Origin: Candidatus Melainabacteria bacterium
Lineage (GTDB): Bacteria > Cyanobacteriota > Vampirovibrionia > Obscuribacterales > Obscuribacteraceae
Length of the DNA: 64,000 nucleotides
Direction: 5' to 3'
NCBI GenBank assembly: GCA_003242885.1
Contig: QKMZ01000017.1
Location: 50,026 to 114,025, forward strand
The notes under the pieces were generated by a model. That model ran no database searches. It worked only from the letters and a program-made list of their open reading frames with translations, and was not told the DNA's origin. Made by a program: the position numbers and the translations under genes. Positions 20,546-59,883 of the stretch are shown one piece after another; positions within the stretch are counted from its first letter, which is position 1; every line of letters begins with the position of its first letter.

Positions 20546-21268
20546 TTGCAAAGAGAGAAATTGCTGCTAAAAATCCGACTGAACAAAAGAGTAATTTTGT
20601 TCAGTCAAGAGAAACAGCAATGGACCATATATCTACTCTCTGCACTTGCATCCAAAAACATGCCCGCATATACTGAACGATATATCTCGCTAGAAAGATT
20701 TTGTTCAATGCCCGGTCAAGCTGCAATTTTGAAAGACAAGGATATCCAAAACATATTCCAAGTCATTCCGTCTCCTCGAAACAAACTTCTCTTTGCAATT
20801 GGCATATACACCGGGTTACGCATCGGCGAAATCGTCCGCCTCGAAACCGACCAGGTGATTACCGAGAACGGAACAGTCAGAAACAAACTGACTGTCAAAC
20901 GCCTGAAGAAGCGCGGGACTGTCTACAGCGACATTCCCATTCACCCAAAACTAAGATCGTATATTCGAGAATACGCATTGTCGACAACACTTGGGACCTG
21001 GCTCTTCCCGTCCGACCGATCGGCAAGCGGCCATATCGAGCGCGTGCAAGGGCACTACATTCTGCGAAGCGCTTACGATGCACTTCGACTTGATGGAACC
21101 AAAACACATTCAATGCGCAGGACTTTTCTAACAACACTTAGTCGAATGGGTGTGCCACTACGCACGGTGCAAGAGATGTCTGGGCACTCTTCACTTTCAC
21201 AACTGCAGGCGTATCTTGCAGTCGATCCGGAAGACACTCGCGATGCGGTGCATAGGCTGAAATATTAG
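20546..21268 (+). CDS. Tyrosine recombinase/integrase
   Basis: IYTGLRIGEIVRLETDQV, THSMRRTFLTTL, MSGHSSLSQLQAYL (R..HxxR..H..Y). Confidence 0.85.
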   Translation: MQREKLLLKIRLNKRVILFSQEKQQWTIYLLSALASKNMPAYTERYISLERFCSMPGQAAILKDKDIQNIFQVIPSPRNKLLFAIGIYTGLRIGEIVRLETDQVITENGTVRNKLTVKRLKKRGTVYSDIPIHPKLRSYIREYALSTTLGTWLFPSDRSASGHIERVQGHYILRSAYDALRLDGTKTHSMRRTFLTTLSRMGVPLRTVQEMSGHSSLSQLQAYLAVDPEDTRDAVHRLKY

Positions 21269-28629: not shown

Positions 28630-28800
28630 TTATTCCGCTCCAAAATTGTGAATGAAACAGATTTAGATACCGATGCGATTTTAAACTTCTTTTGCAGAAG
28701 TTGTTCCTTAGGAGAATGAGAGTGCCATCATGGACAACTGTTGGCAAAGGTATATGTCAAATGGGTATTAATTCAACAGTCATTCCGGAGCAACTCCATG

Positions 28801-29088
28801 CCATTAGACACCACGCACATAGAGACTTTGATAGAAGCCTACACCGAAGCAGCCGTTCAGGCTCAACGTTTCGCCGATAAGTACAGCAAAATCTACATTG
28901 AAGAGTCCAGGTTTTATAATGAACGAGCTGAAGAATTTCTTGCTCACGCTACAGCGGCTAAGGCGCTCGAGCTAGACCAATCCCTCCAGGACTTTGCTCT
29001 CTACGCCGCAGAACTTAAGAAACATGATCAAGACGACTTAAGTGCAGCGAAGAAATTTTTTCAGGTACGAAAAGCTCTCTGGGAGTAG
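28801..29088 (+). CDS. Small helical hypothetical protein
   Basis: ATG at 28801; ORF ends directly before repeat site 1. Confidence 0.5.
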   Translation, partial: PLDTTHIETLIEAYTEAAVQAQRFADKYSKIYIEESRFYNERAEEFLAHATAAKALELDQSLQDFALYAAELKKHDQDDLSAAKKFFQVRKALWE

Positions 29089-29093
29089 AACAT

Positions 29094-29102
29094 TACCAAG
29101 AA
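29094..29102 (+). repeat. Module-border repeat, site 1 (TACCAAGAA arm)
   Basis: aACATTACCAAGAATttgct. Confidence 0.7.
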
Positions 29103-29103
29103 T

Positions 29104-29292
29104 TTGCTCGTTAGCGTTTCTTGCTCTTCGATTCTTGATCCGGAACATGCAAGCTTGAATAGGATTATGACTGAGAAAGATGATGGCAAAAATGAAATTC
29201 GCAAAGAGTCAATCACGACCCTGAGTGTTTGTGCCCTTGCCGTTCTGACGATAGTAACCACTGGAAATCTTGAATTTAGCCAAAAGCACTGA
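29104..29292 (+). CDS. Small hypothetical protein with one predicted hydrophobic segment (module 1)
   Basis: ORF lying between repeat sites 1 and 2. Confidence 0.35.
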   Translation: MLVSVSCSSILDPEHASLNRIMTEKDDGKNEIRKESITTLSVCALAVLTIVTTGNLEFSQKH

Positions 29293-29376
29293 GGTGTGTT
29301 GCTGTCTCTCGGTGAGAAGCGGCGAAAACGGCGCACGTTGAAGGAGCTACCAGCTCCAAAAGAGTAGCCAAAACAT

Positions 29377-29400
29377 TACCAAGAATGACTGAAATTGGTA
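29377..29400 (+). repeat. Module-border repeat, site 2 (TACCAAGAA-tgactg-AAATTGGTA)
   Basis: Perfect TACCAA/TTGGTA inverted arms in 24 bp. Confidence 0.7.
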
Positions 29401-30119
29401 CCGCTATGACAGATGACGAAATTATCGAAAGCGTTCGGCATTCTTTGATCGTTCTTGGAGTCGGGGATATTAAGAGGGCCTATGAAGGACGTTCGTTAGT
29501 TGGAGCTTTTACACTGTGTTGCTGTTTGCTCGATTCAGCTTCTGGATATTGTTGCAATGGCAACAACTTTGAGTCATTTTGCGTCCAGTTTTTGCACAAG
29601 GTAAATCGAAAGTATAGACAAATTCAGCAGTTGCTATACACTGCGTTGCGAAACGGACTTGTGCATTCACATTCCCCTGGGATCCGACTGGAGAATGGAA
29701 AGATTTGGCGATTCGCTCTTAGTACTGAAAATCCGGAAAAGCATCTGACAAAATCAGAATTCGGTGACCAGGTAGAAGTATTTTTAAACCTCGATTGTTT
29801 CATTGCTGATGTTGAAGAAGCAATAAACAGATACTTCATTTCGGTGTCCGATTTGAAAGATCCTCATAGGAAACGGAAACACCTTTTGGAACACGCAAAG
29901 AACGTCGGATGGCTCAAGATTTCTAGAGAATTCGAACAACAAGATTGCGCAGGAATTCTCTTGCGTGGGCTTGTTACCGGTACAGGCTTTCCTCAAGATA
30001 AACAATTTGTCCCACAGCCAACAGACGCGACTGTATTTCAGAGGAAGAAAATGGAGCCGGAAAAGAAGCGCAAAAAAAAGTCTCAAATACCCGGCTTCTT
30101 ACTCCCGAAAGATGAGTGA
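29385..30119 (+). CDS. Hypothetical protein (module 2)
   Basis: 244-aa ORF between repeat sites 2 and 3; LLYTALRNGLVHSHSPG motif. Confidence 0.55.
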   Translation: MTEIGTAMTDDEIIESVRHSLIVLGVGDIKRAYEGRSLVGAFTLCCCLLDSASGYCCNGNNFESFCVQFLHKVNRKYRQIQQLLYTALRNGLVHSHSPGIRLENGKIWRFALSTENPEKHLTKSEFGDQVEVFLNLDCFIADVEEAINRYFISVSDLKDPHRKRKHLLEHAKNVGWLKISREFEQQDCAGILLRGLVTGTGFPQDKQFVPQPTDATVFQRKKMEPEKKRKKKSQIPGFLLPKDE

Positions 30120-30142
30120 AAGCTGCTTCATTGCACAAACAT

Positions 30143-44970: not shown

Positions 44971-45403
44971 ACACCTATTTTTCCCAAAGCGCAGTTTCTT
45001 TGACGTGAGGCAAACACATCGGCTGAGGCCGCTTGCAGAAATTACTTAAAACTTCGGACGTATAAACTCAATAAGTACAAGAGCTTTGACCAATTTCGTA
45101 TAAATACAGACAAAATTTTCCCTGGCTCCGGCAAGCAAAACGGTTAAATTATGAGCAATACAGACAAAATCGGATCACCTTTTATCCTGCCTTACGGCAC
45201 TGCGTGGCGTCCGTTGCGCTTCAGTTCCACTTCAGCGCCGGGAGTGCTAGCGCACCTCGAGGAGCGTCCGGGCGCCGCGATTTGTTCTATTTCGACAAAT
45301 GGTAGTTGTCGATTTCAGAAGTCGGTGTCACAAATTTCAAAAGAGGATGTCACGACTTCTTCAGGGTCGCTTCGCTTCAAGGAAGCGCTTTTGCCAAACC
45401 ACC

Positions 45404-46387
45404 CTAGTACAAGGTCCAGCGCATCAGTTCCTTTTCAACCTTTTGCTTCTGCTCCTCCGAGCATCGGTTAAACAACATTTCAGTGGAAAGCAAAAAATAT
45501 CCATTCTCCAGCGTCATGTGGCGATGCTCCATTAGATCTAATGCGGTCGCTAAAACTATCGCCCATCTTCTAGCTGGGTCCTTTTGGTTTCTGCTTAGAA
45601 AAAGAATTTTGGGACAACGCTCGCACACGAACTTTTGCCACTCGACCCGTTTACCATAAGAGTTCATCGGCTGTCTGAGCTGACGATGAACCACCTTAAG
45701 TAGCCGAAACCACCTAGCAGCATCAGTAAGTCCTCCAGGCAACATAACACTCCCTTCTGTCACAGCCGCCCAGGTTCGACCGTCCAGCTTACTCACAACG
45801 CTTGGAGCCGGTTCAGGTTTCTCTTTCTGCCAGGCAATAGAACTCCCTGTTACTCGGACTGCTTCCAACATCAATCTGTGCACTGGACATGACAGAAAAA
45901 TAGCCAGCCGCCACGGAAGCAAAAAAGCTGCGTCCGGATAACCCTCCATGCATAAACGACACACTAACACCTCGCTGCCCTGCGCCTTCCGAAACCACCG
46001 GATACCATCAGATAGTCGACTGCGCGTTAGCCAGATTGCTCTCGACCCAAGCTCCTTAGTTTCAAAACAATCGAAAAGAAACGGCATCAGACCCGCAAGC
46101 GTTGCTCTCTGGACGGCCTCCAGCTCCACACCTGTTCGCTCAGATATTGCCTTTATTAGCTGCTCCGGGGGACTCCGGTCCAACGTCGGTATTTGCAATC
46201 CTTGAAAACCAAGCCCCCATCTCAGCAATTCTCCCGTACCAAGTCCATAAACAGCTCCAATTCTTCTGAGCCAGGATGACAAACTCTCGCACGGAAGCAG
46301 CGGCGGATGCCCCGGCCATCGCATTGTCATCACTTCACCCCTTCTCAAAGGCTCGGCGCCTCTCGGGCGGCGATTGGTATTGCGCAA
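45404..46387 (-). CDS. tniQ: TniQ family transposition protein
   Basis: PPLLPCESLSSWLRRIGAVYGLGTGELLRWGLG; CRLCMEGYPDAAFLLPWRLAIFLSCPVHRLML. Confidence 0.85.
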   Translation of the reverse strand: MRNTNRRPRGAEPLRRGEVMTMRWPGHPPLLPCESLSSWLRRIGAVYGLGTGELLRWGLGFQGLQIPTLDRSPPEQLIKAISERTGVELEAVQRATLAGLMPFLFDCFETKELGSRAIWLTRSRLSDGIRWFRKAQGSEVLVCRLCMEGYPDAAFLLPWRLAIFLSCPVHRLMLEAVRVTGSSIAWQKEKPEPAPSVVSKLDGRTWAAVTEGSVMLPGGLTDAARWFRLLKVVHRQLRQPMNSYGKRVEWQKFVCERCPKILFLSRNQKDPARRWAIVLATALDLMEHRHMTLENGYFLLSTEMLFNRCSEEQKQKVEKELMRWTLY

Positions 46388-47240
46388 GCCTTAATGTCTT
46401 TTCGTTGATGCATTCCTCGCCGCTGTTCACCGCTTCTATCGCTGCTGCGTTAAGTAATCTCGCAATTTCTCCAATGGTTCCTCCTGTTTTAGCGAGAACA
46501 TATTTGGACAGTCCAGAAGTCGCTATTCTCGATGGATGCTTGAGCGGCAGCGCAGCCGCAAAGCTGGCCATCAACGACCTAAGCTCTTCTCCTTCCTCCC
46601 AGACTGGCAGCATAAGCGGCTCAAACCGATTTTCCAGTTGATCATCTGACCTTATTGCCAGGTACGCTTCCCGCGTACCAACCCCCACTATTGGTACCTG
46701 AAGCTCATTTCCTAAAAATCTGAGTAGATTCAAAAACCCCCGCCGCGTTCGTGATGAGCCTGCCAACACATTATGCAGCTCGTCTATAATTAGCATCTTT
46801 ACTTTCACTGTTCGGCAAAGCCGCAAACTGAGCTGCTCTAGCTCAGCCACCTGTGCACGAGGCCTAATTGGCGCTCCGATACTACTCAACAGCATTTCAT
46901 AGAATCTTCCCGTTGCTGGCTCTGACGGCACCTGAACCACAACTATCGGAATTACTCCTGGTTCAAATTCTCCGCATCCAGCCACCATTTGATCTCTTCT
47001 AAATTTCTCTACTATCTTGCTCTTGCCATTATTGGTCGGCCCAACCATCAGGACATTAGGCATTCTCTGTTTTTTCGGCCACAACATTAGTTCGTCCAAC
47101 CGGCTTAGTGCCGTTTGCGCTTTTGCATACCCAATCCACCGATCACTACGAATATGCCAAACTCGCTCTTCATTTGGAAGCAATGCTGCTTCACGGGCAG
47201 CTTCGGTCAAATGGCTCAGATCCGGTGTGACTATGCTCAT
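46335..47240 (-). CDS. tniB: TniB AAA+ ATPase
   Basis: MVGPTNNGKSKIVEKF Walker A; MLIIDELHNVLAGS Walker B. Confidence 0.9.
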   Translation of the reverse strand: MSIVTPDLSHLTEAAREAALLPNEERVWHIRSDRWIGYAKAQTALSRLDELMLWPKKQRMPNVLMVGPTNNGKSKIVEKFRRDQMVAGCGEFEPGVIPIVVVQVPSEPATGRFYEMLLSSIGAPIRPRAQVAELEQLSLRLCRTVKVKMLIIDELHNVLAGSSRTRRGFLNLLRFLGNELQVPIVGVGTREAYLAIRSDDQLENRFEPLMLPVWEEGEELRSLMASFAAALPLKHPSRIATSGLSKYVLAKTGGTIGEIARLLNAAAIEAVNSGEECINEKTLRLAQYQSPPERRRAFEKG

Positions 47241-47244
47241 AAGA

Positions 47245-48963
47245 TCACCACTCCTCTACGTCAAATGGCTCAATTAGCTTCTCTGTCCCAGTTTCGTCTT
47301 CTGGAATGGCAAACTCAACACTCTTGAGCCATTCCTCAACTTCAAATGGCTTCACGTAGCTGTCTTCATCTACTTCTTCTGCTGACACGATAGGGGTGGA
47401 TTCCTCTGCCGGCTGAGCAAGATGTGCTCTACGATTCTTATCCCTCCGAGCCCGCTTTCTCTCCTTAACCGCACTTTCCGTAATTTCGCGCATCTCTTCA
47501 ATCATGCTGAAAATTGCTGCTTCATCTACTTGCTCTAACCCTCTCTTTCGCAGGTTCTCAACAGCTTTTCGGTGTTCCCACTGTGTTACCGGCGGCCGTG
47601 AAAGTGTTCGGTATGGTATGTCGAAATAAAGCTTGCTCTCAGGATCTAGAACCCAGATTCGGCTCAAATCTCGCGGATCTCGCCGAATAATGAATTTCCC
47701 CAGACGATCACGGCTCGCTATCCAGGGTTTAAGAACATCTCCAAAATATGTTATGTGGTCTATTAAAAATCCCTGGCGCGTAACCCTTCGCTCTATCACC
47801 GGAAGAAAATCAATCAAGAATGTCTGCTTATCTCTTATATCAACAATCGGAAAAGCCTCAATGCTTCTCTTCCAAACGGCGGCCGGCGTCTCTGTCAAAG
47901 TGCCGTGTATGGTCCCGTGATATCTCGCTATAGCCAACACCAGCCACTTCTCCAGCTCCGACAGTGTCAAGCTGGCGGTCCTTTCCGGCTTGTCTGTTCC
48001 AAGCTTCTGAACATTTGAAAAGGTAGTGCCCGGCACCTCGTGACTCATTGTCATCGCTGTGCCTATTACACGCTCTATGATCCCACCAAAGTGTGGCTGC
48101 CCTTTTGGTCGATAATCCTGCTCAATGCCATACTGCTCACAACCTCGCTTGAGTGCTTCACTGTGGAACTCCGGCGCGTTGTCTACATGAATCTTTTTCG
48201 GCTTACCACGCATTGGCCACAACCTGATATCGAGCCCAAACCGCTCCAACCAAGCACTTTTGTCCATCACAACATGCACCAGACAGAGTCCCACCGACAG
48301 AGTCGAAGGAGCCTCAAGAGTAAGCAGCATGCCGACTATACAGCGCGTAAAAACATCAATCGCCAAGGTTAATGACGGTCTGCCGATAGCCTCTCTTGAT
48401 GCCTCATCAACAACTTCGACATCCATTTTTGTGTGATCAATTTGAACCACCGCCATGGGACCATCCGCTGGCGGCATTTCTCCCGCTGCCGGTTGAAGCC
48501 GTCTAGCTGCTGTTCCTCCTTGCCTCTTCCTTGTTACCATCAGCGGATCGAGCGTTTCGATTCGCGCGTCTATCGTGTTATACGTCGGAGCCTGCTGCCC
48601 AGACCTAATACAGCGCATCCGAATCTCACGCGCTATTACTGCCCTGGAGCGCCTTTGCCTGGACAGATATAGGCTCTTGAGCACTTCAGCAATGATTACT
48701 TCTACTTCTGGACTAATTCGAGATTTGCCTTTGCCGCCTGGAGGACTACTCCGGGCCATGTCTGTCACCAGCCCCTGACCCATCCGATATCGCTTCACCA
48801 GCCTATAAACTTGCCTGCTACTTATGCCGAGCATCGCTGCCGCCTCCTCGGCCGCAGTCAGACCAACAACCTCTTCTTGAGCAAGTGGCGCTATTACCTC
48901 GCTGCGTTTCTTCGCCCAGATCCACTCTCTGTCCGTTAGCAGTAGCACTCCATCTTCCTGCAT
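47245..48963 (-). CDS. tniA: TniA DDE integrase/transposase
   Basis: VVQIDHTKMDVEV, SLTLAIDVFTRCIVGMLLTLE, IHVDNAPEFHSEAL, GIIERVIGTAM; start set at ATG 48963. Confidence 0.9.
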   Translation of the reverse strand: MQEDGVLLLTDREWIWAKKRSEVIAPLAQEEVVGLTAAEEAAAMLGISSRQVYRLVKRYRMGQGLVTDMARSSPPGGKGKSRISPEVEVIIAEVLKSLYLSRQRRSRAVIAREIRMRCIRSGQQAPTYNTIDARIETLDPLMVTRKRQGGTAARRLQPAAGEMPPADGPMAVVQIDHTKMDVEVVDEASREAIGRPSLTLAIDVFTRCIVGMLLTLEAPSTLSVGLCLVHVVMDKSAWLERFGLDIRLWPMRGKPKKIHVDNAPEFHSEALKRGCEQYGIEQDYRPKGQPHFGGIIERVIGTAMTMSHEVPGTTFSNVQKLGTDKPERTASLTLSELEKWLVLAIARYHGTIHGTLTETPAAVWKRSIEAFPIVDIRDKQTFLIDFLPVIERRVTRQGFLIDHITYFGDVLKPWIASRDRLGKFIIRRDPRDLSRIWVLDPESKLYFDIPYRTLSRPPVTQWEHRKAVENLRKRGLEQVDEAAIFSMIEEMREITESAVKERKRARRDKNRRAHLAQPAEESTPIVSAEEVDEDSYVKPFEVEEWLKSVEFAIPEDETGTEKLIEPFDVEEW

Positions 48964-48999
48964 AAGACCTCCGTCCTCGGTGGTTAGCCATGCAAAGTT

Positions 49000-49023
49000 T
49001 CTCAAAAAGAACCTTTTATGGGA
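49000..49023. repeat. Candidate tyrosine-recombinase core site inside the transposon, plus accessory half-site at 49092-49100
   Basis: TCTCAAAAA-gaacct-TTTATGGGA (7/9 matching inverted arms); TTTATGGGA again downstream. Confidence 0.55.
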
Positions 49024-49111
49024 CACTGCCCTGAAAAAAAACCTCGATAACGGGCATTTTCATTACAGGCTCCAACAGTCTTCCAGCCATCTTTTATGGG
49101 AAAGTGCACAA

Positions 49112-49702
49112 ATGCCCAATTCACCTCCGCCAAAAATCCCAAATATAGAAAAACGGTCTCGTGAATATTTGACCCAAGCGGAGGTCAAGCAAATGATCGA
49201 CGCTGCAAAAATTACTGGCAGATACGGTGCAAGAGACGCTTTACTCATTCTCGTTAGCTATAGACACGCGTTGAGAGTGGGGGAGTTGATCGAATTAAAG
49301 TGGGACCAGTTCGACCTGGACAATGCTCTATTTCATGTGAATCGCCTGAAGAATGGCAATCCGTCAGTCCACTATCTGGAAGGCGATGAGATTCGTGCGC
49401 TTAGAAAATTGCGCCGGTCCTACTCAGACTCAACTTTTGTCTTTTGCTCTGAACGTCAAGGACCTCTGACTAAAAGTGCCGTTCACAAAATAGTCGTCCG
49501 CGCCGGTCTGCTTGCCGGTCTTGAATTGTCCGCTCATCCGCACATGCTTCGCCATGCCAAAGGTTTTCAGTTAGCGTCCAAAGGTGTGGACACACGGGCA
49601 ATCCAGGCGTACTTTGGCCATAAGAACATCCAACATACCGTCACCTACACACAGCTTGATCCCACTCGCTTCAAAGGCTTTGGCAAGGATCTGAGGTTAT
49701 AA
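49112..49702 (+). CDS. Short FimB/XerD-like tyrosine recombinase carried by the transposon (candidate resolvase)
   Basis: YRHALRVGELIELKWDQFDLD, HPHMLRHAKGFQLA, AIQAYFGHKNIQHTVTYTQ; close homologue of 31322-32026. Confidence 0.85.
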   Translation: MPNSPPPKIPNIEKRSREYLTQAEVKQMIDAAKITGRYGARDALLILVSYRHALRVGELIELKWDQFDLDNALFHVNRLKNGNPSVHYLEGDEIRALRKLRRSYSDSTFVFCSERQGPLTKSAVHKIVVRAGLLAGLELSAHPHMLRHAKGFQLASKGVDTRAIQAYFGHKNIQHTVTYTQLDPTRFKGFGKDLRL

Positions 49703-50152
49703 CCGTTGCCACCAAACGAATGTGACACTGACTTCTGAAAAATAGCCTTATGTGACATCGACTTCTGAAATTCTCACCCCTCTTTTTTTCAACAGTCGAT
49801 GTCACAAGTCTCACCCTTGCCGGATCGAGAATGACATCCACTTCTGAAATCGACAGGAGTCGCTACACCTCGGCACAGCACGACCGCCTACTTAGATTTT
49901 CAAGCTCTCTTTAATTTGTCGTGCGGCTAAAGCCCCCTCGGGGCGTGCAGGGTTCATCAAGCCCCGATGTAAGGGGCGCTTTCTGCTTTGCACGCAGGCA
50001 CAGCACATACGAAGAGCAACAAGCTAGAGATTTCTCGCCGCCCTAAAGCCAGTTTGAAATTTTTGCATCACTAGGGAATTCCACCTTTTTCTATCCAAGC
50101 CTTTCAGGCGAGGATGTCATTATGGTTTTAGAGGTAAGCATGGAGTGCCCGT

Positions 50153-50407
50153 ATGAAAAAGAAAGCCGAAAAAATCGACCGTGAAGTGGTTGAGAATATG
50201 ATGGTCGATACAACAAGGCTCAGAGCGGCTTTGATGTTGGCGTGCCTTGAACTTACCCAAGGTGATTTGATTGCGGCTATCGATTTATCTGAGGAACTGT
50301 ACGACACCGCGCCGAAATTACTTGAAGGTCTAAACGAGACGGGCCTGGATAATTTGCCGTGCGGTCCAGCCAAAGTGCTCCCTTTCCCCAAAAAAACAAG
50401 CAATTAA
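50153..50407 (+). CDS. Small hypothetical protein
   Basis: 84-aa ORF. Confidence 0.4.
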   Translation: MKKKAEKIDREVVENMMVDTTRLRAALMLACLELTQGDLIAAIDLSEELYDTAPKLLEGLNETGLDNLPCGPAKVLPFPKKTSN

Positions 50408-52275
50408 AAACTGGGCGGACCTCTCAAGCTTTTCGCCGTTTTCTCGATCAGTGAAAATTCATCTGCAAAACCTGATGAATAGCCCTGATTGCCCGTTGTC
50501 AAGAATTTATAATTGATAGGCTTGGTGGCTGTTTTCCTGTTTTTGTTTTTTGCTCCAAAGAAAGGTAGGGCGCTGGTTTTAGTAGCTGCGCCTGTCTTTT
50601 CTTTAGTACCGCTTACGGTGGCATCAGTATAGCAAACTAAGCCAGGTGCTTGGTTCCGAGAAATGGAAGAAATTCCCTCCGCACCCATCTGCCCCTCTGC
50701 CCGAATACCGTCGAACCAGGGCCCCGGTGTAAATACTTGCTCAACAACCCGCAGGGCTTGGTCTTTACGCTGGGGGTTCGATGGTTGGCTATTCGCCGGG
50801 CAGATTGTAAGGGGGGCTACCGAAGCGGTTTTACTGTCTTCAAGTTCTCGATTCGCTAAGTCCAAATCCGAACAAGGCGGAATTTCTGATTTCTCTTTTT
50901 CTTCAAACCCAACTTCCGGAACTACCGAACCCGAAAAATCCCCCCACACCCCCCGGTTATAAACGCTGGGCCAGATAGCCAAGAGATCAGAATGCTTTGA
51001 AATCGTGCGCCGATTGCAGCCTGCTTTTCTGGCAATTTCCGATTTAGTTAACACCACGTCTTCTGCCAAAAGTTCTTGGATGGCTTTCTTGATTCGGTTT
51101 CTTGCATCTTCCAGGCGTGCATTATTCGCCTCGGCCATCCGGTCTACCTCATACAGTCGGCCGGTCTTCGCATATACCTCTAGCAGCCTCTTCAAGAGAC
51201 GATCAGTTAGAGGGTAGGGTTTTCTAGCCTCATAGTTTTTTCCTCGCCTCCAGAAGACCGTTCGCCATATATGCGCCTCAATTTCTTTCCATTGCTCTAA
51301 ATTGATGTGCCTGCAAAAACCGTTGTGTTTCTTTTTCAGCCAGGCCTCAATCAGCCTTGCCCTGGTTTCATCATTTCGTCGGCCTGGATATGCCGGGACG
51401 TTCTCTGAAGGATCTCCATACCAGAGATAATGACCCACAGCCATGACAGCATCGTGTCTTTGCCCTTTTGCTGTCAGCCCGTAAAGCCAGTGCTCACGCC
51501 CTTTGTCCCAAGTCTCTTGAATCTTCCCTTTTCTGAACAGATCATCAAAACCCGCAAGCGATATGACTTTTTCATGCTCCTGGGCGCCGGCGCCGGCATG
51601 ACTGCCGGCGGATTGAATTTGGCTTTCTATCAAGGTTTTGGCATTCTGCCAATTTCTTGAATTTTCTTCGAAGTCTTGAAGGAATGAGGCTAGCGCCTCG
51701 TCTTCTCTTATTTCTTCTCTTCTAACTTCTATACTTCCATCCGGAGCAAGCCAGCCAAAGCCTTTCTGAAGGGGCAGTCGCAGAGCGTTTCCGCTCGGAA
51801 AAATCTCGAGCTGTCCGGAGGCAATTTCATAGCCCAGTGTCTTTAGCCAGGTCTTTAGAGTCTGGTTTACTTCGTCACTTTCGGCCCATTCCTCAAACGG
51901 CAAATACAAGTGCCAGCCGCCTGAATCGCTGCTTTGATACGGAATTCCGTATAGGCCGACTGCAGCTAAATGCGCCTGCAGTTTTTGCAGTTCGGTTTCA
52001 TTGTGATATCTGCTGCCTATATCCAAATCCAAGACAGCATGCCGGGTCTTGTGTGACCAGTAGCAGCCCCGATAAAGACCGCGCCCTTCATCTGACACCA
52101 CGCCCAAGATCTGAGCGTCCAAGAGCGGGCCCACGGCCTTCTGCCATCGCTCCTGGTCATAGGTCTTCCAGATAAATGCATCACGGCGAGGAAACAACGA
52201 AGAGAATGCCTCTCGTTGAAATAGAGTTGTTGGGCCGCTATCTGCGGCTGTTAAAAATGCTGTAGCTCCGGTCAC
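50404..52275 (-). CDS. AEP-like primase/replication protein (intact copy, plasmid B)
   Basis: HAVLDLDIGSRYHN (DxD), SGGWHLYLPFEE, LRLPLQKGFGWL; HTH-like KSEIARKAGCNRRTISKHSDLL. Confidence 0.7.
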   Translation of the reverse strand: MTGATAFLTAADSGPTTLFQREAFSSLFPRRDAFIWKTYDQERWQKAVGPLLDAQILGVVSDEGRGLYRGCYWSHKTRHAVLDLDIGSRYHNETELQKLQAHLAAVGLYGIPYQSSDSGGWHLYLPFEEWAESDEVNQTLKTWLKTLGYEIASGQLEIFPSGNALRLPLQKGFGWLAPDGSIEVRREEIREDEALASFLQDFEENSRNWQNAKTLIESQIQSAGSHAGAGAQEHEKVISLAGFDDLFRKGKIQETWDKGREHWLYGLTAKGQRHDAVMAVGHYLWYGDPSENVPAYPGRRNDETRARLIEAWLKKKHNGFCRHINLEQWKEIEAHIWRTVFWRRGKNYEARKPYPLTDRLLKRLLEVYAKTGRLYEVDRMAEANNARLEDARNRIKKAIQELLAEDVVLTKSEIARKAGCNRRTISKHSDLLAIWPSVYNRGVWGDFSGSVVPEVGFEEKEKSEIPPCSDLDLANRELEDSKTASVAPLTICPANSQPSNPQRKDQALRVVEQVFTPGPWFDGIRAEGQMGAEGISSISRNQAPGLVCYTDATVSGTKEKTGAATKTSALPFFGAKNKNRKTATKPINYKFLTTGNQGYSSGFADEFSLIEKTAKSLRGPPSF

Positions 52276-52306
52276 TGTCTGCCTTTAAGCGTTTGAAAAC
52301 GCGTGC

Positions 52307-52452
52307 TTGACTGTGCCAGATCTGTCCGCTATCCTTATCGCATCGGGGAAATCGCCTGCCAGCAAAACCCCAATATTAATCGAATATCCGAAAGATCTAG
52401 TCTATTGATTTTTTGAAAAGCATCGCCCCTGGCGGTGTTTTTTTTTGAAAGA
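52307..52452 (+). ncRNA. Candidate antisense RNA to the leader of the AEP gene 50404-52275
   Basis: TTGACT (52307-52312)-17 bp-TATCCT (52330-52335); terminator CATCGCC-cct-GGCGGTG-TTTTTTTTTT about 90-110 nt downstream. Confidence 0.5.
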
Positions 52453-52576
52453 TTTCAGACCTTGCCACCCTGGGTAGTGGCTAATGAGAAACGTCATGGT
52501 CAGAATAACTGTAAGAAACACATAGAGCAATTGATCCTGTGAGGCATACAGCGGATATAGAGGCACTTGAAAAAAG

Positions 52577-53000
52577 TCAGTGAACAATCATAATTAGTCA
52601 GTGACCATATCTGAACATTCTTTAGAAAGCCCACCTGATGGAAAAAATTGAATCGCACGAACTTCAAAGTGACCTAAGCATGGTTGGCTTTGAAAAAGTA
52701 TTTGTTCAAGTTGAACAAACTGAAAAAACTGAACAATCCGACAAAAAAACCGATGTTCATGAACATATTCAGGAATTTGAAGCAGACTCGACCGAATTGG
52801 TCAGCATGGCAGAAGCCTCCAGGCGTTTGAAAATTCCTTATCCAACTTTACGCCGCCAAGTCTTGGCTGGAAAGATTGAAAGCTCGTTAGGTCGCGATGG
52901 AAAACCGCTGGTCAGATTGGCCAGGCATGAAAAGCCATCGAATATTCGCGAACAAAAAGTGAACAAACCAGAGCCGATTACGGTACAAAGTGAACATTCA
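52577..53000. repeat. GAACA-type motif cluster including palindromes (candidate operator/ori/centromere, plasmid B)
   Basis: TTGTTCAA-g-TTGAACAA (52702-52718), TGTTCATGAACA (52754-52765), upstream cagtgaacaat/cagtgaccat/ctgaacatt, further gtgaaca in the ORF. Confidence 0.55.
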
Positions 53001-53210
53001 GCGAATATTCAACGATTGCTTGAGGTCATTGAGTCCGAGCGAAGTTACTCGCGCAGTCTCAATGAAAGGCTAGAAGCAGCGAATCACCGCAATGGATACC
53101 TTGAAGCACAAGCAGAAGGCTTTCAAGAGCAAATCAAACTCCTGACTGATAGTCAGCATAAGCGCGGTTGGTGGGCTCGTTTTAGTTCTTGGTTCATGAC
53201 CGGCAGATAA
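52638..53210 (+). CDS. HTH/coiled-coil DNA-binding protein (plasmid B counterpart of 19747-20415)
   Basis: VSMAEASRRLKIPYPTLRRQVLAGKIESSLGRDGKPLVRLARH then coiled coil; same divergent position next to AEP gene. Confidence 0.6.
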   Translation: MEKIESHELQSDLSMVGFEKVFVQVEQTEKTEQSDKKTDVHEHIQEFEADSTELVSMAEASRRLKIPYPTLRRQVLAGKIESSLGRDGKPLVRLARHEKPSNIREQKVNKPEPITVQSEHSANIQRLLEVIESERSYSRSLNERLEAANHRNGYLEAQAEGFQEQIKLLTDSQHKRGWWARFSSWFMTGR

Positions 53211-53257
53211 CCGGTTTTATGTATTATTTAAGTTACTACAATCTGAAAAGGCGAACG

Positions 53258-54544
53258 GTGAAAATCGGGATAGAACGCAAAACCGCTCCCCTAGTTCTGT
53301 TCTGCACACTTTCTTTTTTATTGGGCATGAGCATGGTCTGGTGGTTGGTTGACGTCGATTTGACAAAACCGGCTTTAGCTCAGCGAACCGATTTTCTGAA
53401 TGCCTTTTACATTGCGGGCGCCATCATGGCAAGGGGTTCTCTTCATGAGCTCTATCCCCCGTTAGAAGCAGACAGCCAAGTTGATTTTGAATTTGCCAAA
53501 GTTGCGCACTCGCTCTTACCTTATTTGCCAGTGAATTCTCAACCTTGTTGGCAATACCCCCCAATCGATGCACAGTTTCTTTCGTTGTTTGCTGGACTGC
53601 CAAGCTCGACAGCACTTCTCACGTGGCAGATTTTAAGTATCGCTGCTATCGGTGCTTCCGTTTTTTTTGTTAGCAGGTTCGCAAAGGTTCACTGGGCTAT
53701 CGTTTCAAGCCTATTTATTATTTTTCTTCCGTTTTTTCAAACACTCAAGTTTGGACAGCAAGGTATTCTGTTTGGTCTTTTTCCACTATGTGCAGCTCTC
53801 TACTTGCTTGGCAGAGACAAGCCTTTTATAGCGGGATTGGTAGTATCGCTGACGTTTCTTACACTAAAATTTTTGGTAATAGCTGGATTAATAAGCCTTG
53901 CTTTGCTGCCGAATCAGCGGCGTATGTTAATCGGGCTGGCAACAGGCTGTTTTATTCTTGTTGGCTTCATGCTTGCAACAGTGCCATTTTTAACGTGTTT
54001 GCAATGGTTGCACAATATTCAGCTGTCCGAAAAGTATTTTTTTGAGCCGCATTTCTATCACAATTTGAGCTTGTACGTTTCGTTCCCGGCCCTATTGATA
54101 TTGCACTTCCCGATAGAATTTCGAACGTTCGGCAAAATCCTGTTTTATCTTTTAGCGGTAACGATTCTCGCTGTGACAATGTTCATTCAGTGGCGACTCA
54201 TGAATTCGAAACTGCCTTTAGAACAGAAACTACGGATCGTTTTTGCTTCTGCTTTTTACGTAATGCCAGTGATTCTGCCACATTTACTCTATTATGACCT
54301 TGCGGGAATAATGGTTGCGAACATTCTTCTATGGGATGTTCAGCCGTCATCTTTGATTTCACAGAAACTGCGGGCTGCTGCAATAACGTCAACACTAGCT
54401 ATAGATGCATATTTCATCTGCTTCGCTGTATTGAATAATTCTTCCTTTCATCCACTCATTTTTTCTTCTGTCTTGACGCTTGTTTATTTGCAGTTGTTAT
54501 GGATCGTCAAAAACACTGTGGCACAAACAAAAGGCGAGCATTAG
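53258..54544 (+). CDS. DUF2029/GT87-like polytopic membrane protein
   Basis: DFLNAFYIAGAIMARGSLHELYPP; YPPIDAQFLSLFAGLP; GQQGILFGLFPLCAALYLLGRDKPFIAGLVVSL. Confidence 0.65.
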   Translation: MKIGIERKTAPLVLFCTLSFLLGMSMVWWLVDVDLTKPALAQRTDFLNAFYIAGAIMARGSLHELYPPLEADSQVDFEFAKVAHSLLPYLPVNSQPCWQYPPIDAQFLSLFAGLPSSTALLTWQILSIAAIGASVFFVSRFAKVHWAIVSSLFIIFLPFFQTLKFGQQGILFGLFPLCAALYLLGRDKPFIAGLVVSLTFLTLKFLVIAGLISLALLPNQRRMLIGLATGCFILVGFMLATVPFLTCLQWLHNIQLSEKYFFEPHFYHNLSLYVSFPALLILHFPIEFRTFGKILFYLLAVTILAVTMFIQWRLMNSKLPLEQKLRIVFASAFYVMPVILPHLLYYDLAGIMVANILLWDVQPSSLISQKLRAAAITSTLAIDAYFICFAVLNNSSFHPLIFSSVLTLVYLQLLWIVKNTVAQTKGEH

Positions 54545-54667
54545 ACCGGTCTATTAGCGGACGGGCAAAAAAATTGCCTTTTAAGTGGGGAAGTGCCCAC
54601 CGCATTTTGGAACTGAAGTCTTTCAACTGGGCATAATTTACCAGATGGATATCACGGGAAATTTCTT

Positions 54668-55447
54668 ATGCGAAATGCCTTTATTCTGCTGTCAGCCTTG
54701 CTTCTTCTAAGCTTCGATTCATCGTCTGCTCAGACACTCATTGGCTCTCCAATTGATCCTGACAAAGACGGAATTGCTCGTCCCAGCGACCAAGAACTTT
54801 TACAAGCCCCAAAGAATAGACATATGATTACTATGAGTGTACCGGGAGATCCTTCTATTAAGCGGGGATGCACACTTTCATTTGACTTTGATCGCTCTGG
54901 AAAAATTGAAAGTTTGCAAATGGTTCATTCGTCTGGAAAGCCAGAAGTTGATTTTGACTGTATCTGTGCTGTTTTAGGATCTTCTCCTTATGAGCCCAAT
55001 GAACGAGGTGATCGCAAAAGCATTTTCTATACCTTTGGAGGTCGAGACCTTCATGAACAAAATGAAGGTGTAAAGGCGATAAACAGACGACAACGGAGTC
55101 TCTTACTATCAAAAAATGGGCTGAGCCCGTCTGAGTATTATGTCTGTAACTTAGTTCCTATCAGTATTCTTTATCGTTATCCAGGTGTGTTTTCAGAAGC
55201 AGAAATTTGCGATATCTCAAATTTGAGAGTAATTGCAAAAACATTTTTTGATAGAAAGAATTCGCCAAGCGTTCCTGAAATTGTGGCAAACAAACGATTT
55301 CGGATGTTTTATGACAAATGGAATGAATTTGTTAGTACGCACAAAAAAGCGACAAAGGAAGAAATAGCAAAATTTCGAGATGGAGTAGATAGCGAGTTTA
55401 AGGATATGTTCTTAACGCTATCAAACTCCATCTCGAAGAAGTTGTAA
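54668..55447 (+). CDS. Secreted hypothetical protein
   Basis: Signal MRNAFILLSALLLLSFDSSSAQ. Confidence 0.5.
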   Translation: MRNAFILLSALLLLSFDSSSAQTLIGSPIDPDKDGIARPSDQELLQAPKNRHMITMSVPGDPSIKRGCTLSFDFDRSGKIESLQMVHSSGKPEVDFDCICAVLGSSPYEPNERGDRKSIFYTFGGRDLHEQNEGVKAINRRQRSLLLSKNGLSPSEYYVCNLVPISILYRYPGVFSEAEICDISNLRVIAKTFFDRKNSPSVPEIVANKRFRMFYDKWNEFVSTHKKATKEEIAKFRDGVDSEFKDMFLTLSNSISKKL

Positions 55448-55497
55448 GACTCCTACTTATTCTTTTAGCTCCGTAGTTTGTCTAATTTCAGTTCAGC

Positions 55498-56355
55498 TCA
55501 CGGAGTGCACTGAGTGGCATAAGTACCAGCGGCCGGGTTCGCCTGGTTCATATACCAGTTGTTTGTAAACCGGTAGGTACACTTGAAATAGTTAGTGGTG
55601 TCCGCGTCGAGGGGGCTGCGAGCAGTACTTCCAGTAGCGATTGCAAACTGTTCTGCAAACAGTTCTTCCTTGTTTCCCCACCAATAAGCGAACGCAGCGT
55701 TATCGGCAACGGTCTGAGGGTTGTTGGCGGCCTCCCAGGCCTGGTCATCCGGATACAGGTTATTGAACGTTGCCGAGTTGGACAACATTCCATTGTAGCG
55801 GTCGAAATGGTGGCCGGTCTCGTGCCGCGAATCGTGGTTTTGCAAGGTCGTAGACTGCGGTTTCACAGCCGGATATCCCGCGGCGGTGTCCGGCACGTTT
55901 TCGTAAACGATAATTGCGTTCTCAGGGTTACCGAGTGCCGTAAACAACGAAAATGCAGGCTTGTTGATCTGAGCATTCCACACGGTCACTGGATTCTGCC
56001 CTGACGCTTGCGCGTACTGTAACGGGCTATCGAAAACGTAGACTCGGACTGTATTGGTCGTCATCAAAGTGCCGATGGTTGGTTCAACGTTAGAAATGCC
56101 CTTCAAAGGGTTATAGACGCTAAAGCCACGGCTCGCTGCGGTGCTGGTTCCGCAATAATAGAACTTAGAGTTCGCACCGGTAGTACCATTGACGGGCCAC
56201 AATGTGCCGCCAACGCGTGGCTCACACATTACACCCGTGCCACCCAGATTAATCGCAGTGATATAACCTTCGGCGGCAAAAGCAGGGGAAGCGCCGAGGA
56301 AGCCGACGCCAAGGAGCAGGGCTCCCAGTGCGAGAATTTTTTGCTTGATATTCAT
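55498..56355 (-). CDS. Secreted HExxH (zincin-like) protein
   Basis: Start MNIKQKILALGALLLGVGFLGASPAFA at 56355; DSRHETGHHFDRY; shares signal and 5' leader with 32881-35055. Confidence 0.6.
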   Translation of the reverse strand: MNIKQKILALGALLLGVGFLGASPAFAAEGYITAINLGGTGVMCEPRVGGTLWPVNGTTGANSKFYYCGTSTAASRGFSVYNPLKGISNVEPTIGTLMTTNTVRVYVFDSPLQYAQASGQNPVTVWNAQINKPAFSLFTALGNPENAIIVYENVPDTAAGYPAVKPQSTTLQNHDSRHETGHHFDRYNGMLSNSATFNNLYPDDQAWEAANNPQTVADNAAFAYWWGNKEELFAEQFAIATGSTARSPLDADTTNYFKCTYRFTNNWYMNQANPAAGTYATQCTP

Positions 56356-56846
56356 GTTTTTTCCTTTTGGGAAGTTGGTTTGGTCCACCTTCTCAGTCCC
56401 AATTCAAACGCAACAAGGATCTGAACACCTTCGCTGTCCTTGTCTTGCTTGGTGGTTATCCTTCTATTTGCGCTGAGCGCTGGGTTTTGCCTTTGGTTGA
56501 GAAGTGAAAGTGGGATTTTGAGCCTATACAAACGCACAGGTGAGAATTGACCCTAGTGTCACTTTTCGTCATGTTTTTAATGAAGCTGTTACTTAGTATA
56601 GTTTCAGACACAATTGATAGAAGCTGTAAAGAGTCATGGATAGCTAATCCTAAAGGAATACTGAAATGCTAGCGCCAGGTTTAAGTTACACGGGCTTAAA
56701 CTAGCGTCCTTACGCTATAAGGTTTTCGGGCGATTTCAAGTGATACCAGTTAACGTCACTTTTATTAGTCTGCTTCTGAGCAAAGTGGCCACAAGGTTTT
56801 CGGCTGAGTGTCTGATTATCGATATTATGTTTCATGCCACCGAAGG

Positions 56847-56901
56847 CGCCACCGCGTTGTTGAAATCGCGCGCAGTGCGACTTTCAACGTTAGCGGTGGC
56901 G
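56847..56901. repeat. Long interrupted hairpin in non-coding region
   Basis: CGCCACCGC/GCGGTGGCG, GTTGAAA/TTTCAAC, TCGC/GCGA nested. Confidence 0.7.
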
Positions 56902-57301
56902 TCTTCCGTCGTCGCTACTATTCAGCCTCTATCCTCTAACCCTAATTTGGGGTAGGCAACAATCCACCATTTCACCCTTGATGCCTGTTGTCATTGTCCG
57001 GCATTAAGTACGCTTTTTTTGTCAGTTGCAATTTCAGGTCATTGGAGGTAATTATCACGAGATCCAGCCCAAAGCAAAGCTTATTTTTCCGGCACCAGTG
57101 CCGCTTTCAGAAGGCGATAACTTTCCTTTGCACTGTCGTGTATTTGCCTCTTACGCTTGAGTTGCGCCGGATTCGACGCAGCCCTTTAGGAGACAAAAAT
57201 TGAAAATCAGAGTCATTACTGTAACCACTTTCCTTTTACTCATTTACTTGCTCGCTGCAAGTCCGGCTCCGGCCTTCTGAGCGCCCGGGAAAGCTATACT
57301 C

Positions 57302-57556
57302 ATGAAAATGAAGAACTATCGCTGGATGTGGATTTCCTTCGTCGTGTGGTTCGTCGTGGTCGGCGGCTACATGGATTTCATCGTATGGATGGAAGAATTG
57401 AAACGTCCCGGCAGCAGTGAGAATTTACTCTTTGAATTACTGCGAACCGGGCTTTTAGTTGGCATACCAGCTGGTTTGATTGGAATTGCACTTTCAGCTT
57501 TGGTGCGCTGGACAATTCGGAGCGGCTGGTGGGGCTCCCGTGACTCAACAAACTAA
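57302..57556 (+). CDS. Small membrane protein
   Basis: 84 aa with two hydrophobic segments. Confidence 0.45.
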   Translation: MKMKNYRWMWISFVVWFVVVGGYMDFIVWMEELKRPGSSENLLFELLRTGLLVGIPAGLIGIALSALVRWTIRSGWWGSRDSTN

Positions 57557-58443
57557 CGTTGCTTTTCTAATTTCCGTAATTCGTTCAAAACGTTATTCAG
57601 GTGGTCGTTTCCACCGCCTGGATTGAACGACATGATAAGCGCTTTGGTTTCTTGTCCAGACTTCCAGAGGGGCAAACAATTGTTCAAAAGAAGCCTCTCA
57701 TCATGCTTCATGGTGTTTCTGTCCGGCGTATTTTTTGCCCAAGTCTCAAGCGATTGAATACGGTCGTCGAGATAAGCACCCACAAGTGCAGTCGCAATTG
57801 ATTTGTCCACAGCCAGTTTTGTGAGATCGTTGGCAGTCGTTCCACCGAATAGATCAGGGTACTTTTCGCCCAGATGCCGGATATTTGATATCGAAATTTG
57901 ACCAGGGCCGACAGTAATGTCTTTCATCGGTTGTACGAGATTGCCGGTTTGACGAACAAACCAATCCGGTGCTGCATCGTCTATTGAGCCATAATACTTT
58001 TGCTCGTTGTTCATAATCGCGGCAATTAAATTAGGGCCGATACCCTCATGCCTTTCTGAATATGCAGAAAGCTTGGGAAGGGTCTGGCTTACACGTCTTG
58101 CTACTTCACTGTCAAAAAAATGATTGGGCTTTTCTCGAAGAGGATGCAGAGCACCCTCAAACGGTTTCAATATGTCTTCTTTCTTCCAAGCCACCTGAGG
58201 TCCTTTCGAGGAAACCTCAGTTCCATCGCCCATATCAATCAGCAGAGGATTGCTGTCAGCATAAGCCTTCATGTCCCCAAAGGTGCTGAATTTGCTTGTT
58301 CTTTGCGCGTCGGCTTCTGCCACTTGCTCGGATGTGACAGCGCGATCCTTGCCCAAATTGTCCGGCTTCTTAATCCCGGCATCAGGCTTTTGCTCTGCCT
58401 GGTCTGCTGGTTTTTGAATCTCTGCCACGTCCAGAAGCCTCAA
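57553..58443 (-). CDS. Lytic-transglycosylase-like protein
   Basis: GIGPNLIAAIMNNEQKYYG...VGPGQISISNIRHLGEKYPDLF; homologue of 43339-44970. Confidence 0.6.
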   Translation of the reverse strand: MRLLDVAEIQKPADQAEQKPDAGIKKPDNLGKDRAVTSEQVAEADAQRTSKFSTFGDMKAYADSNPLLIDMGDGTEVSSKGPQVAWKKEDILKPFEGALHPLREKPNHFFDSEVARRVSQTLPKLSAYSERHEGIGPNLIAAIMNNEQKYYGSIDDAAPDWFVRQTGNLVQPMKDITVGPGQISISNIRHLGEKYPDLFGGTTANDLTKLAVDKSIATALVGAYLDDRIQSLETWAKNTPDRNTMKHDERLLLNNCLPLWKSGQETKALIMSFNPGGGNDHLNNVLNELRKLEKQR

Positions 58444-58478
58444 CAGTTCTGCATTTTTCCAGTATACGCCTGCTGTCT

Positions 58479-58811
58479 CTATGGTTCAAAATTGAGTTTG
58501 CTTGCGGCTTTTTTGACACTTCCTAGCAAACCAACGGTGTTCTGTCCTTCTTTGGTAAGGCTGTATTCGACTCTTGGCGGTTTTTCTCGGAAGATTTTCC
58601 GACGTACCAGCCCCAGTCTTTCTAAAAGCCGAACCCGCTCGGTGAATGTCTTTGCCGATAATCCAGGTAAATCTTGAAGTATCCTTTTCGTGCGCTTTTC
58701 TCCGGATGCTAACTCCAATAAAATCGCGCTAGTCCAGGTAGGGCTCAAGGCTTTGAGCGCATTTTCAATCGGAACTGCATCAACAGGGCGCAAAGTAACG
58801 TGCTTGCTCAT
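58479..58811 (-). CDS. HxlR family transcriptional regulator
   Basis: ALKALSPTWTSAILLELASGEKRTKRILQDLPGLSAKTFTERVRLLERLGLVRRK. Confidence 0.85.
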   Translation of the reverse strand: MSKHVTLRPVDAVPIENALKALSPTWTSAILLELASGEKRTKRILQDLPGLSAKTFTERVRLLERLGLVRRKIFREKPPRVEYSLTKEGQNTVGLLGSVKKAASKLNFEP

Positions 58812-58813
58812 TT

Positions 58814-59359
58814 CTATTTCCCTTCCGTCTTAATTAGCTGCGCCATTAGACCACTGTGCCCTATCGTCATTGCCGCTGAATATCCACCGGTTGCCCGGTT
58901 TCCAGCTTTCCAGACAAGCTCTGTACCGTCGATGATTGCCTCATATTTCCACTGATCCTTATCCCACGGCGCAGCGCTCTTGTAGTTTTTGTCATGCATC
59001 AGCCACCACCACATGGCGTATTCTTCGCGCTTTTTGTAAGGGATGTATGTGGCTGTCAGATTGTCCAGGCGCTCACCTTTTTCAAAAGCCCAGTTCTGAA
59101 GATCAATCGAAAAGGCGGCTTTGACGTTGTTTGCGACTTTTCCATATCCGGATTTGAATTTCCTCGGACCTGTCGGAAACCAGTTCTTACTTGGATTTTT
59201 GTCTTGTTCGGCAGCTATCTCTTGAATCGTTTTGAAAAAAGTCGGGCTGCGTTTTTCGACTCCGGTATCGCCAAAAACCGCAGTGGTAGACTCTGCCAGG
59301 GCGGGAAGACCGATCAGAAGACAGAGAGCTGCTGCCGTCAATTCTTGTGTTGTTTGCAT
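58814..59359 (-). CDS. Secreted hypothetical protein
   Basis: Homologue of 37188-37721. Confidence 0.6.
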   Translation of the reverse strand: MQTTQELTAAALCLLIGLPALAESTTAVFGDTGVEKRSPTFFKTIQEIAAEQDKNPSKNWFPTGPRKFKSGYGKVANNVKAAFSIDLQNWAFEKGERLDNLTATYIPYKKREEYAMWWWLMHDKNYKSAAPWDKDQWKYEAIIDGTELVWKAGNRATGGYSAAMTIGHSGLMAQLIKTEGK

Positions 59360-59361
59360 AT

Positions 59362-59874
59362 TCACTCCATTTCTCCTACCTGCTGTGGTCCCAATAGAGC
59401 GCAAGTTCTGATGCGCTTATTTATTGCCCTAATGATGTTTGTGTTTAAATATCCACCAGGCGGAATCTCGTAAATGTGCCATCGATACAGGATTCTAGTG
59501 GTGCCATCTTGTTGTGGAAGAAAATCGATGTAGCAAGTTAACTGGCGGATTACTTCTCGGACAGCTGGAATTTGCTCGGTGTATTGAACTAATGTAGTGA
59601 TTCTTAAAACGTCAGGATCGGCTCTGAGATTGACTCCCAGATGTCCTATGTTTGGCGTTAGATCTCGTGCCATCTGCAACCAAAGGTCATCCATCGGGAA
59701 TTGAGAATAGAAACTGCCTTCGCGAGCTTCCATCGCCAGGTCGTCTTTGCGCTTCTCTTCGAAGTCGCTATAAACTTTCCCGGCTTCATCAGCAACCTTT
59801 TTGGCTGCATCCTTGCCCATATCAAACAGCTTCTTTCCCCAGCCGATAGCCTTCTTTTTCGTTTCCTCGTCCAT
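59362..59874 (-). CDS. Hypothetical protein in mobilization operon
   Basis: 170-aa ORF adjacent to T4CP. Confidence 0.5.
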   Translation of the reverse strand: MDEETKKKAIGWGKKLFDMGKDAAKKVADEAGKVYSDFEEKRKDDLAMEAREGSFYSQFPMDDLWLQMARDLTPNIGHLGVNLRADPDVLRITTLVQYTEQIPAVREVIRQLTCYIDFLPQQDGTTRILYRWHIYEIPPGGYLNTNIIRAINKRIRTCALLGPQQVGEME

Positions 59875-59883
59875 AATTCGCCT

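Follow-up and report, generated by a model that had tools for sequence, protein, structure and literature searches.

In replicative transposons, resolution systems are usually presented as belonging to a particular family, with the serine recombinase TniR serving Tn5053 and TnpR, TnpI or TnpS/T serving Tn3. A transposon from a Candidatus Melainabacteria bacterium raises the question of how an element with Tni transposition genes might be served by a recombinase of another kind. Tn5053-type elements form cointegrates that are resolved by res-TniR and are long-lived without the resolvase (PMC7765201). The window, by which we mean the whole 64,000-nucleotide stretch analysed (positions 50,026 to 114,025 of contig QKMZ01000017.1, here C17), holds a Tn5053/Tn402-type element of 4,549 bp (45307-49855) whose ends enclose genes for TniA, TniB, TniQ and a tyrosine recombinase (Table 1). 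A literature search, with most subscription journals outside it, returned no description of a Tni element with a tyrosine resolution module. We consider it likely that this is a replicative transposon of the Tn5053 type that lacks tniR-res and has acquired a tyrosine-recombinase module, similar to TnpI and its IRS, that would carry out resolution.

Table 1. Features of the transposon, its recombination site, its flanks and related sites. Coordinates are those of the window unless a contig is named.
Feature	Coordinates	Strand	Remarks
GTAGT left flank of transposon	45302..45306	.	target duplication, partner at C17 start; single GTAGT in empty site G111:C162
Left (tniQ-side) end	45307..45352	+	TGTCGATTTCAGAAGTCGGTGTCA and a second copy
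tniQ	45404..46387	-	PF06527, E 6.6e-15
tniB (AAA+ ATPase)	46335..47240	-	PF05621, E 2.7e-69
tniA (DDE transposase)	47245..48963	-	Mu-transpos_C and sub-threshold rve; ATG 48963 likely start
Core site	48998..49025	+	arms 48998-49008 and 49015-49025 around GAACCT (49009-49014); single copy in assembly
Accessory half-site TTTATGGGAAAGT	49093..49105	+	direct, 78 bp 3′ of core right arm
Tyrosine recombinase, 196 aa	49112..49702	+	PF00589; R-K-HxxR-H-Y motifs; XerC/D/A/H homologues
Right (tniA-side) end	49723..49855	-	four end repeats: 49723, 49753, 49787 (inverted), 49832; terminus TGTCGATTTCAGAAGTGG
GGAGT right flank	49856..49860	.	partner 63900-63904
14-kb replicon between transposon copies	49856..63904	.	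rep-like gene, relaxase, coupling protein (Pfam)
Second transposon copy, left end	63905..64000	+	100% to 45304-45402; cut by contig end
Paralogue core site	31302..31329	+	inverted arms scored with 6-bp centre
Paralogue accessory half-site	31407..31419	+	88 bp 3′ of paralogue core right arm
Paralogous recombinase, 95-kb plasmid	31322..32026	+	76% identity; listed ORF start inside core, true start uncertain
Orphan core-plus-accessory sites	G117:C35:20122, G077:C226:5232, G077:C295:4818, G055:C14:32200		+77 spacing; stretch of up to 1.5 kb without recombinase gene

The gene calls of the original prediction (TniA, TniB, TniQ and a FimB/XerD-like tyrosine recombinase) were borne out by Pfam matches. 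The three tni genes lie in one operon, and TniA is 54.8% identical to that of an Enterobacter Tn5053-type element consisting of tniABQ, a serine recombinase and mer genes. The ends were searched for using the repeat TGACATCGACTTCTGAAA, copies of which lie on both sides of the tni gene cluster; the element begins with TGTCGATTTCAGAAGT at 45307 and its inverse finishes at 49855, giving the TGTC...TTTCAGAAG inverted termini, internal repeats and 5-bp duplications of Tn5053/Tn402. No match to a serine resolvase was found within the element, leaving it without the tniR/res of that family. Only 97 bp separate tniQ from the left end and there is therefore no room for tniR, which in Tn5053-type elements (the Enterobacter element was compared) lies 3′ of tniQ. 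The tyrosine recombinase had been assigned to the resolvase position; this was wrong, as it sits at the opposite end, between tniA and the tniA-side end, with 20 bp separating its stop codon from the first repeat of the right end. An independent insertion unrelated to the transposon was rejected, as the termini on either side of the gene match and the end repeats start no more than 20 bp away from it. Clearly, though, the transposon acquired the module, and only in this sense does the earlier proviso hold that the recombinase might prove to be an independent insertion; the site arrived together with the gene, at a location suited to a resolution function.

The window copy has a different 5-mer at each end, each paired with one flanking the other copy. 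C17 (114,025 bp) begins in the right end of that second copy, followed by GTAGT, and finishes in its left end, preceded by GGAGT; about 99 bases of the repeat are left at either end of the contig, which we read as a de Bruijn overlap. The resulting layout, GTAGT-Tn-GGAGT-(14-kb plasmid)-GGAGT-Tn-GTAGT, is the one predicted for replicative transposition (target-GTAGT-Tn-GGAGT-donor-GGAGT-Tn-GTAGT), and two controls back this copy-and-paste reading. The empty target was found in a related genome as G111:C162, which is the same plasmid (100% over 2.3 kb) with one GTAGT and the outer flanks joined without the transposon, and the ends of the 14-kb segment, when joined in silico, gave an unbroken alignment to the transposon-free L121 (79%, 1.7 kb) and L120 (75%, 2.1 kb), as expected of a contiguous donor. 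Replicative transposition through cointegrates, as in Tn5053/Tn402, is thus recognised here by structure alone (reciprocal duplications and two empty sites). Whether C17 is a true cointegrate or two separate plasmids joined by the assembler across the repeat cannot be told, and copy-and-paste transposition accounts for either; an identical layout would result if two plasmids already carrying one copy apiece underwent homologous recombination. The cointegrate looks unresolved in the assembly, which, if real, would mean that resolution is inefficient.

Two further observations concern these plasmids. The rep-like protein encoded at 50404-52275 has no Pfam match and has relatives on other contigs of the genus, and it is probably the replication protein of the 14-kb plasmid. 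Both insertions (45183-45306 and 63817-63904) lie ~80-120 bp from TATCCTGC, a MOBP nic-like sequence near mob genes, with the tniQ side towards it, and at L067 (1-63) an insertion is found in the same TATCCTGC-type repeat in the same orientation; the elements may target oriT-proximal DNA in a manner comparable to res-site hunting.

The recombinase consists of a catalytic domain only, which is plain from Pfam and the size of the protein, and lacks the N-terminal extension of many relatives. Its catalytic motifs are intact, placing a catalytically complete recombinase beside its site. This bears on a comparison with TnsF of the Tn7-like Tn6022, a tyrosine-recombinase relative that is inactivated and carries N-terminal zinc fingers (PMC10293859), and which could be taken to hint at a target selector in the window as well. 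The window protein keeps its catalytic motifs and has neither zinc fingers nor any other extra domain, and there is very little chance that it selects targets. A FimB-like DNA invertase flipping a promoter would agree with the best NCBIfam matches, which are tyrosine-type DNA invertases; these matches remain below the curated cut-off for the FimB/FimE type (148.9 of 222 bits), and there is one core in the genome with no inverted partner, making an invertase highly improbable.

The site occupies the gap from which tniA and the recombinase gene diverge. This gap had been given as 148 bp (48964-49111), which is right if tniA starts at the ATG at 48963 and the recombinase at the ATG at 49112. The predicted core, TCTCAAAAA-GAACCT-TTTATGGGA at 49000-49023 with arms complementary at 7/9 positions, was confirmed, and the full site has two inverted 11-bp arms with 6 bp between them, forming a palindrome that is imperfect (8/11), followed 78 bp downstream by a direct half-site. 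The second copy of TTTATGGGA, the one accessory half-site found at the window core, is present at 49093-49101, one base from the predicted 49092. A matching arrangement had also been predicted for the paralogous recombinase and was recovered there, with TTTATGGTA at 31319-31327 and 31407-31415. Core and accessory together score 18/22 at both window genes, a value reached in none of 60 dinucleotide shuffles of each. The window contains 5 copies of TTTATGGKA where 0.57 would be expected, a number reached by no shuffle, and the 13-mer TTTATGGKAMAGT has four copies in the 6.7-Mb genome, three of which are at the two window recombinase genes. The whole core, allowing up to 3 mismatches, occurs once in the assembly.

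When the window is compared with L074, DNA homology (about 72% identical) extends only from the core to the recombinase stop codon. A boundary so near the core is what might be seen if an integrase had used the core site to bring a small element into the transposon. Against this, the other boundary lacks a second core, the genome has no further copy, and no cargo is carried. The accessory element, for its part, is a direct half-site placed at set distances; we think an integrase most unlikely. Partner sites for an integrase or an invertase were sought and none were found in the genome.

To follow the site among relatives, every position upstream of their recombinase genes was scored for inverted 11-bp arms with a 6-bp centre and a direct half-site 70-95 bp on. 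At least 16/22 was scored by 22 of the 31 loci, and all 22 have the half-site at +77-79 or +86-89 despite the wider range searched. These two spacing classes are about one helical turn apart, which suggests a looped complex. Arm sequence varies by locus while the accessory copy matches its own core, nearly always at these same distances. The cyanobacterial loci have the same architecture and agree in spacing (+77/78), some with quite different arms, such as TTACCAACTTA/AAAGTTGGTAA with an accessory matching 11/11 at +78; the centre is 7 bp at some loci. Some loci gave no convincing site (e.g., L089-L091, L097, L099, L100, L140, L142 and L154-L158). The original expectation of conserved recombinase and site pairs held over dozens of loci, where arms differ and spacing is fixed, and among Tni elements came down to one case.

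At most loci the accessory reads in frame as part of the recombinase N-terminus, giving a PSFSVKS-like peptide, and its conservation could be partly coding. The two window genes have the motif in a different frame. Furthermore, all four orphan cores examined, which were found by the core pattern alone and have no recombinase gene within 1.5 kb, have an accessory at exactly +77. Because sites without a nearby recombinase gene keep this spacing, the geometry is not a coding artefact, and that explanation was rejected. When arm and accessory sequences were permuted, no permutation was as good as the observed pairing, an inflated result since the sites had been selected for high self-match; we place little weight on it and rely on the spacing and the orphan sites.

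The recombinase family was found in 25 of 382 genomes of the class and a related TniA in 7, with the two joined only at the window. No such recombinase is carried by the other Tni elements examined: three TniA relatives (L069-L071) have a serine resolvase after tniB or tniQ, as does the Enterobacter element, whereas L067, another relative with both ends visible, has no serine resolvase. Tni elements as general carriers of this recombinase were thus rejected, the window being the only TniA-bearing locus to have one. Since the pairing is seen once among Tni elements, it is an acquisition by the window lineage and not a feature of Tni elements.

Within the class, most loci of the family lie away from any Tni gene, some relatives adjoin ParA on plasmids, and the paralogue on the 95-kb plasmid lies outside any transposon, with no Tni gene next to it. 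These contexts would fit a plasmid multimer-resolution cassette that was caught between tniA and the transposon end, keeping its biochemistry and riding as a passenger rather than serving as the transposon's resolvase. We find this unlikely, given that the closest relatives (81% identity), L074 and L075 of Obscuribacterales, are inside an unrelated DDE and AAA+ transposon (with GCTTGC at both outer ends in L075) in the same place and orientation, divergent from the transposase and with the site between. In the tree, the window and L074/L075 proteins group together, apart from the plasmid copy, which comes next. In addition, any such site carried by a replicative transposon would act on that transposon's cointegrates anyway. 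A Tn3-family transposase adjoins the recombinase at L138, L139, L141, L143, L145 and L148, all on cyanobacterial plasmids, and at 7 of 14 further loci from other genomes of the phylum; the Tn3-linked proteins form a separate group with moderate support. Tn3 elements, the second transposon and plasmid partition loci are all places where resolution is needed, and the module is portable, with close copies serving another transposon family and distant ones accompanying Tn3-family elements and plasmids. It is possible to go further and view the 0.73-kb core-to-stop unit as a self-contained cassette for resolution, passing by site-specific recombination of its own between unrelated replicative transposons and plasmids, with the orphan sites served in trans for landing or resolution, an idea that we regard as rather doubtful.

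Several further loci were also recorded. The recombinase gene at L086 (7710-11145) is interrupted by an apparent trio of tyrosine recombinase genes resembling a RIT element. A second family of tyrosine recombinases, of about 190 aa, is found in the window at 20708-21265 (on this plasmid), at L074 (10154-11453), where it is encoded in the L074/L075 transposon operon, and at L079 and L103. A plasmid stretch that is 100% identical to window 28771-35947 carries an additional transposon at L023 (4403-7471); its transposase shares 40% identity with the L074 one. Lastly, at L078 (3800-3840) a transposon end of the L074 type comes after a recombinase, with the matching transposase absent from the stretch examined.

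Returning to an acquired resolution module, a working scheme can be proposed. TniA, TniB and TniQ would carry out a copy-and-paste insertion that leaves donor and target replicons fused, with a directly repeated transposon copy at each junction. The recombinase would bind the two inverted core arms and cut and rejoin around the 6-bp centre, and further binding some 7.5 or 8.5 helical turns off, at the accessory half-site, would build a synaptic complex that favours direct repeats. Recombination between two directly repeated cores would then split the cointegrate. As the site is between divergent genes, the enzyme may also regulate both tniA and its own gene. The single case of a TniA and recombinase pairing, the possibly coding share of the accessory's conservation, the 8/11 core and the missing N-terminal extension all count against this scheme.

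The occurrence of a tyrosine system with a conserved two-part site beside cyanobacterial Tn3 transposases, as well as within a Tn5053-type element and a second DDE transposon, means that resolution behaves like a module that can be exchanged. The variety of sites also provides dozens of natural recombinase and site pairs for specificity studies.

Among known systems, Tn5053/Tn402 is matched in TniA, tniABQ order, ends, duplications and cointegrate structure, and differs in having tniR/res where the window element has a tyrosine recombinase at the opposite end. TnpI of Tn4430 and Tn5401, in the Tn3 family, acts at an inverted core beside its gene and at direct accessory repeats (PMC7157771). 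The parallel drawn originally between this system and a Tni-type element stands for the tyrosine recombinase, the inverted core beside its gene and the direct accessory sequence, and fails for the accessory number, with one half-site at +78 in the window instead of DR1-DR2. The window protein is also a 196-aa catalytic-domain protein encoded alongside a different transposase, and TnpI was compared by description only. Cyanobacterial Tn3-family elements (Nostoc NIES-3756, Calothrix NIES-4101 and others) have the same recombinase family (48-56%) and site architecture, and the Calothrix NIES-4101 core is close to that of the window, but their transposase is of the Tn3 type and several have a 7-bp centre. 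The L074/L075 transposon has the closest recombinase, with the module in the same place and orientation, yet its transposase is only 25% identical, its ends are different and it encodes an additional recombinase of 194 aa. Type V-K CRISPR-associated transposons are Tn5053-like, lack TnsA and give cointegrate products (PMC8188705). They differ from the window element in being RNA-guided and have no identifiable resolvase, and a native tyrosine module beside TniABQ is therefore of direct interest.
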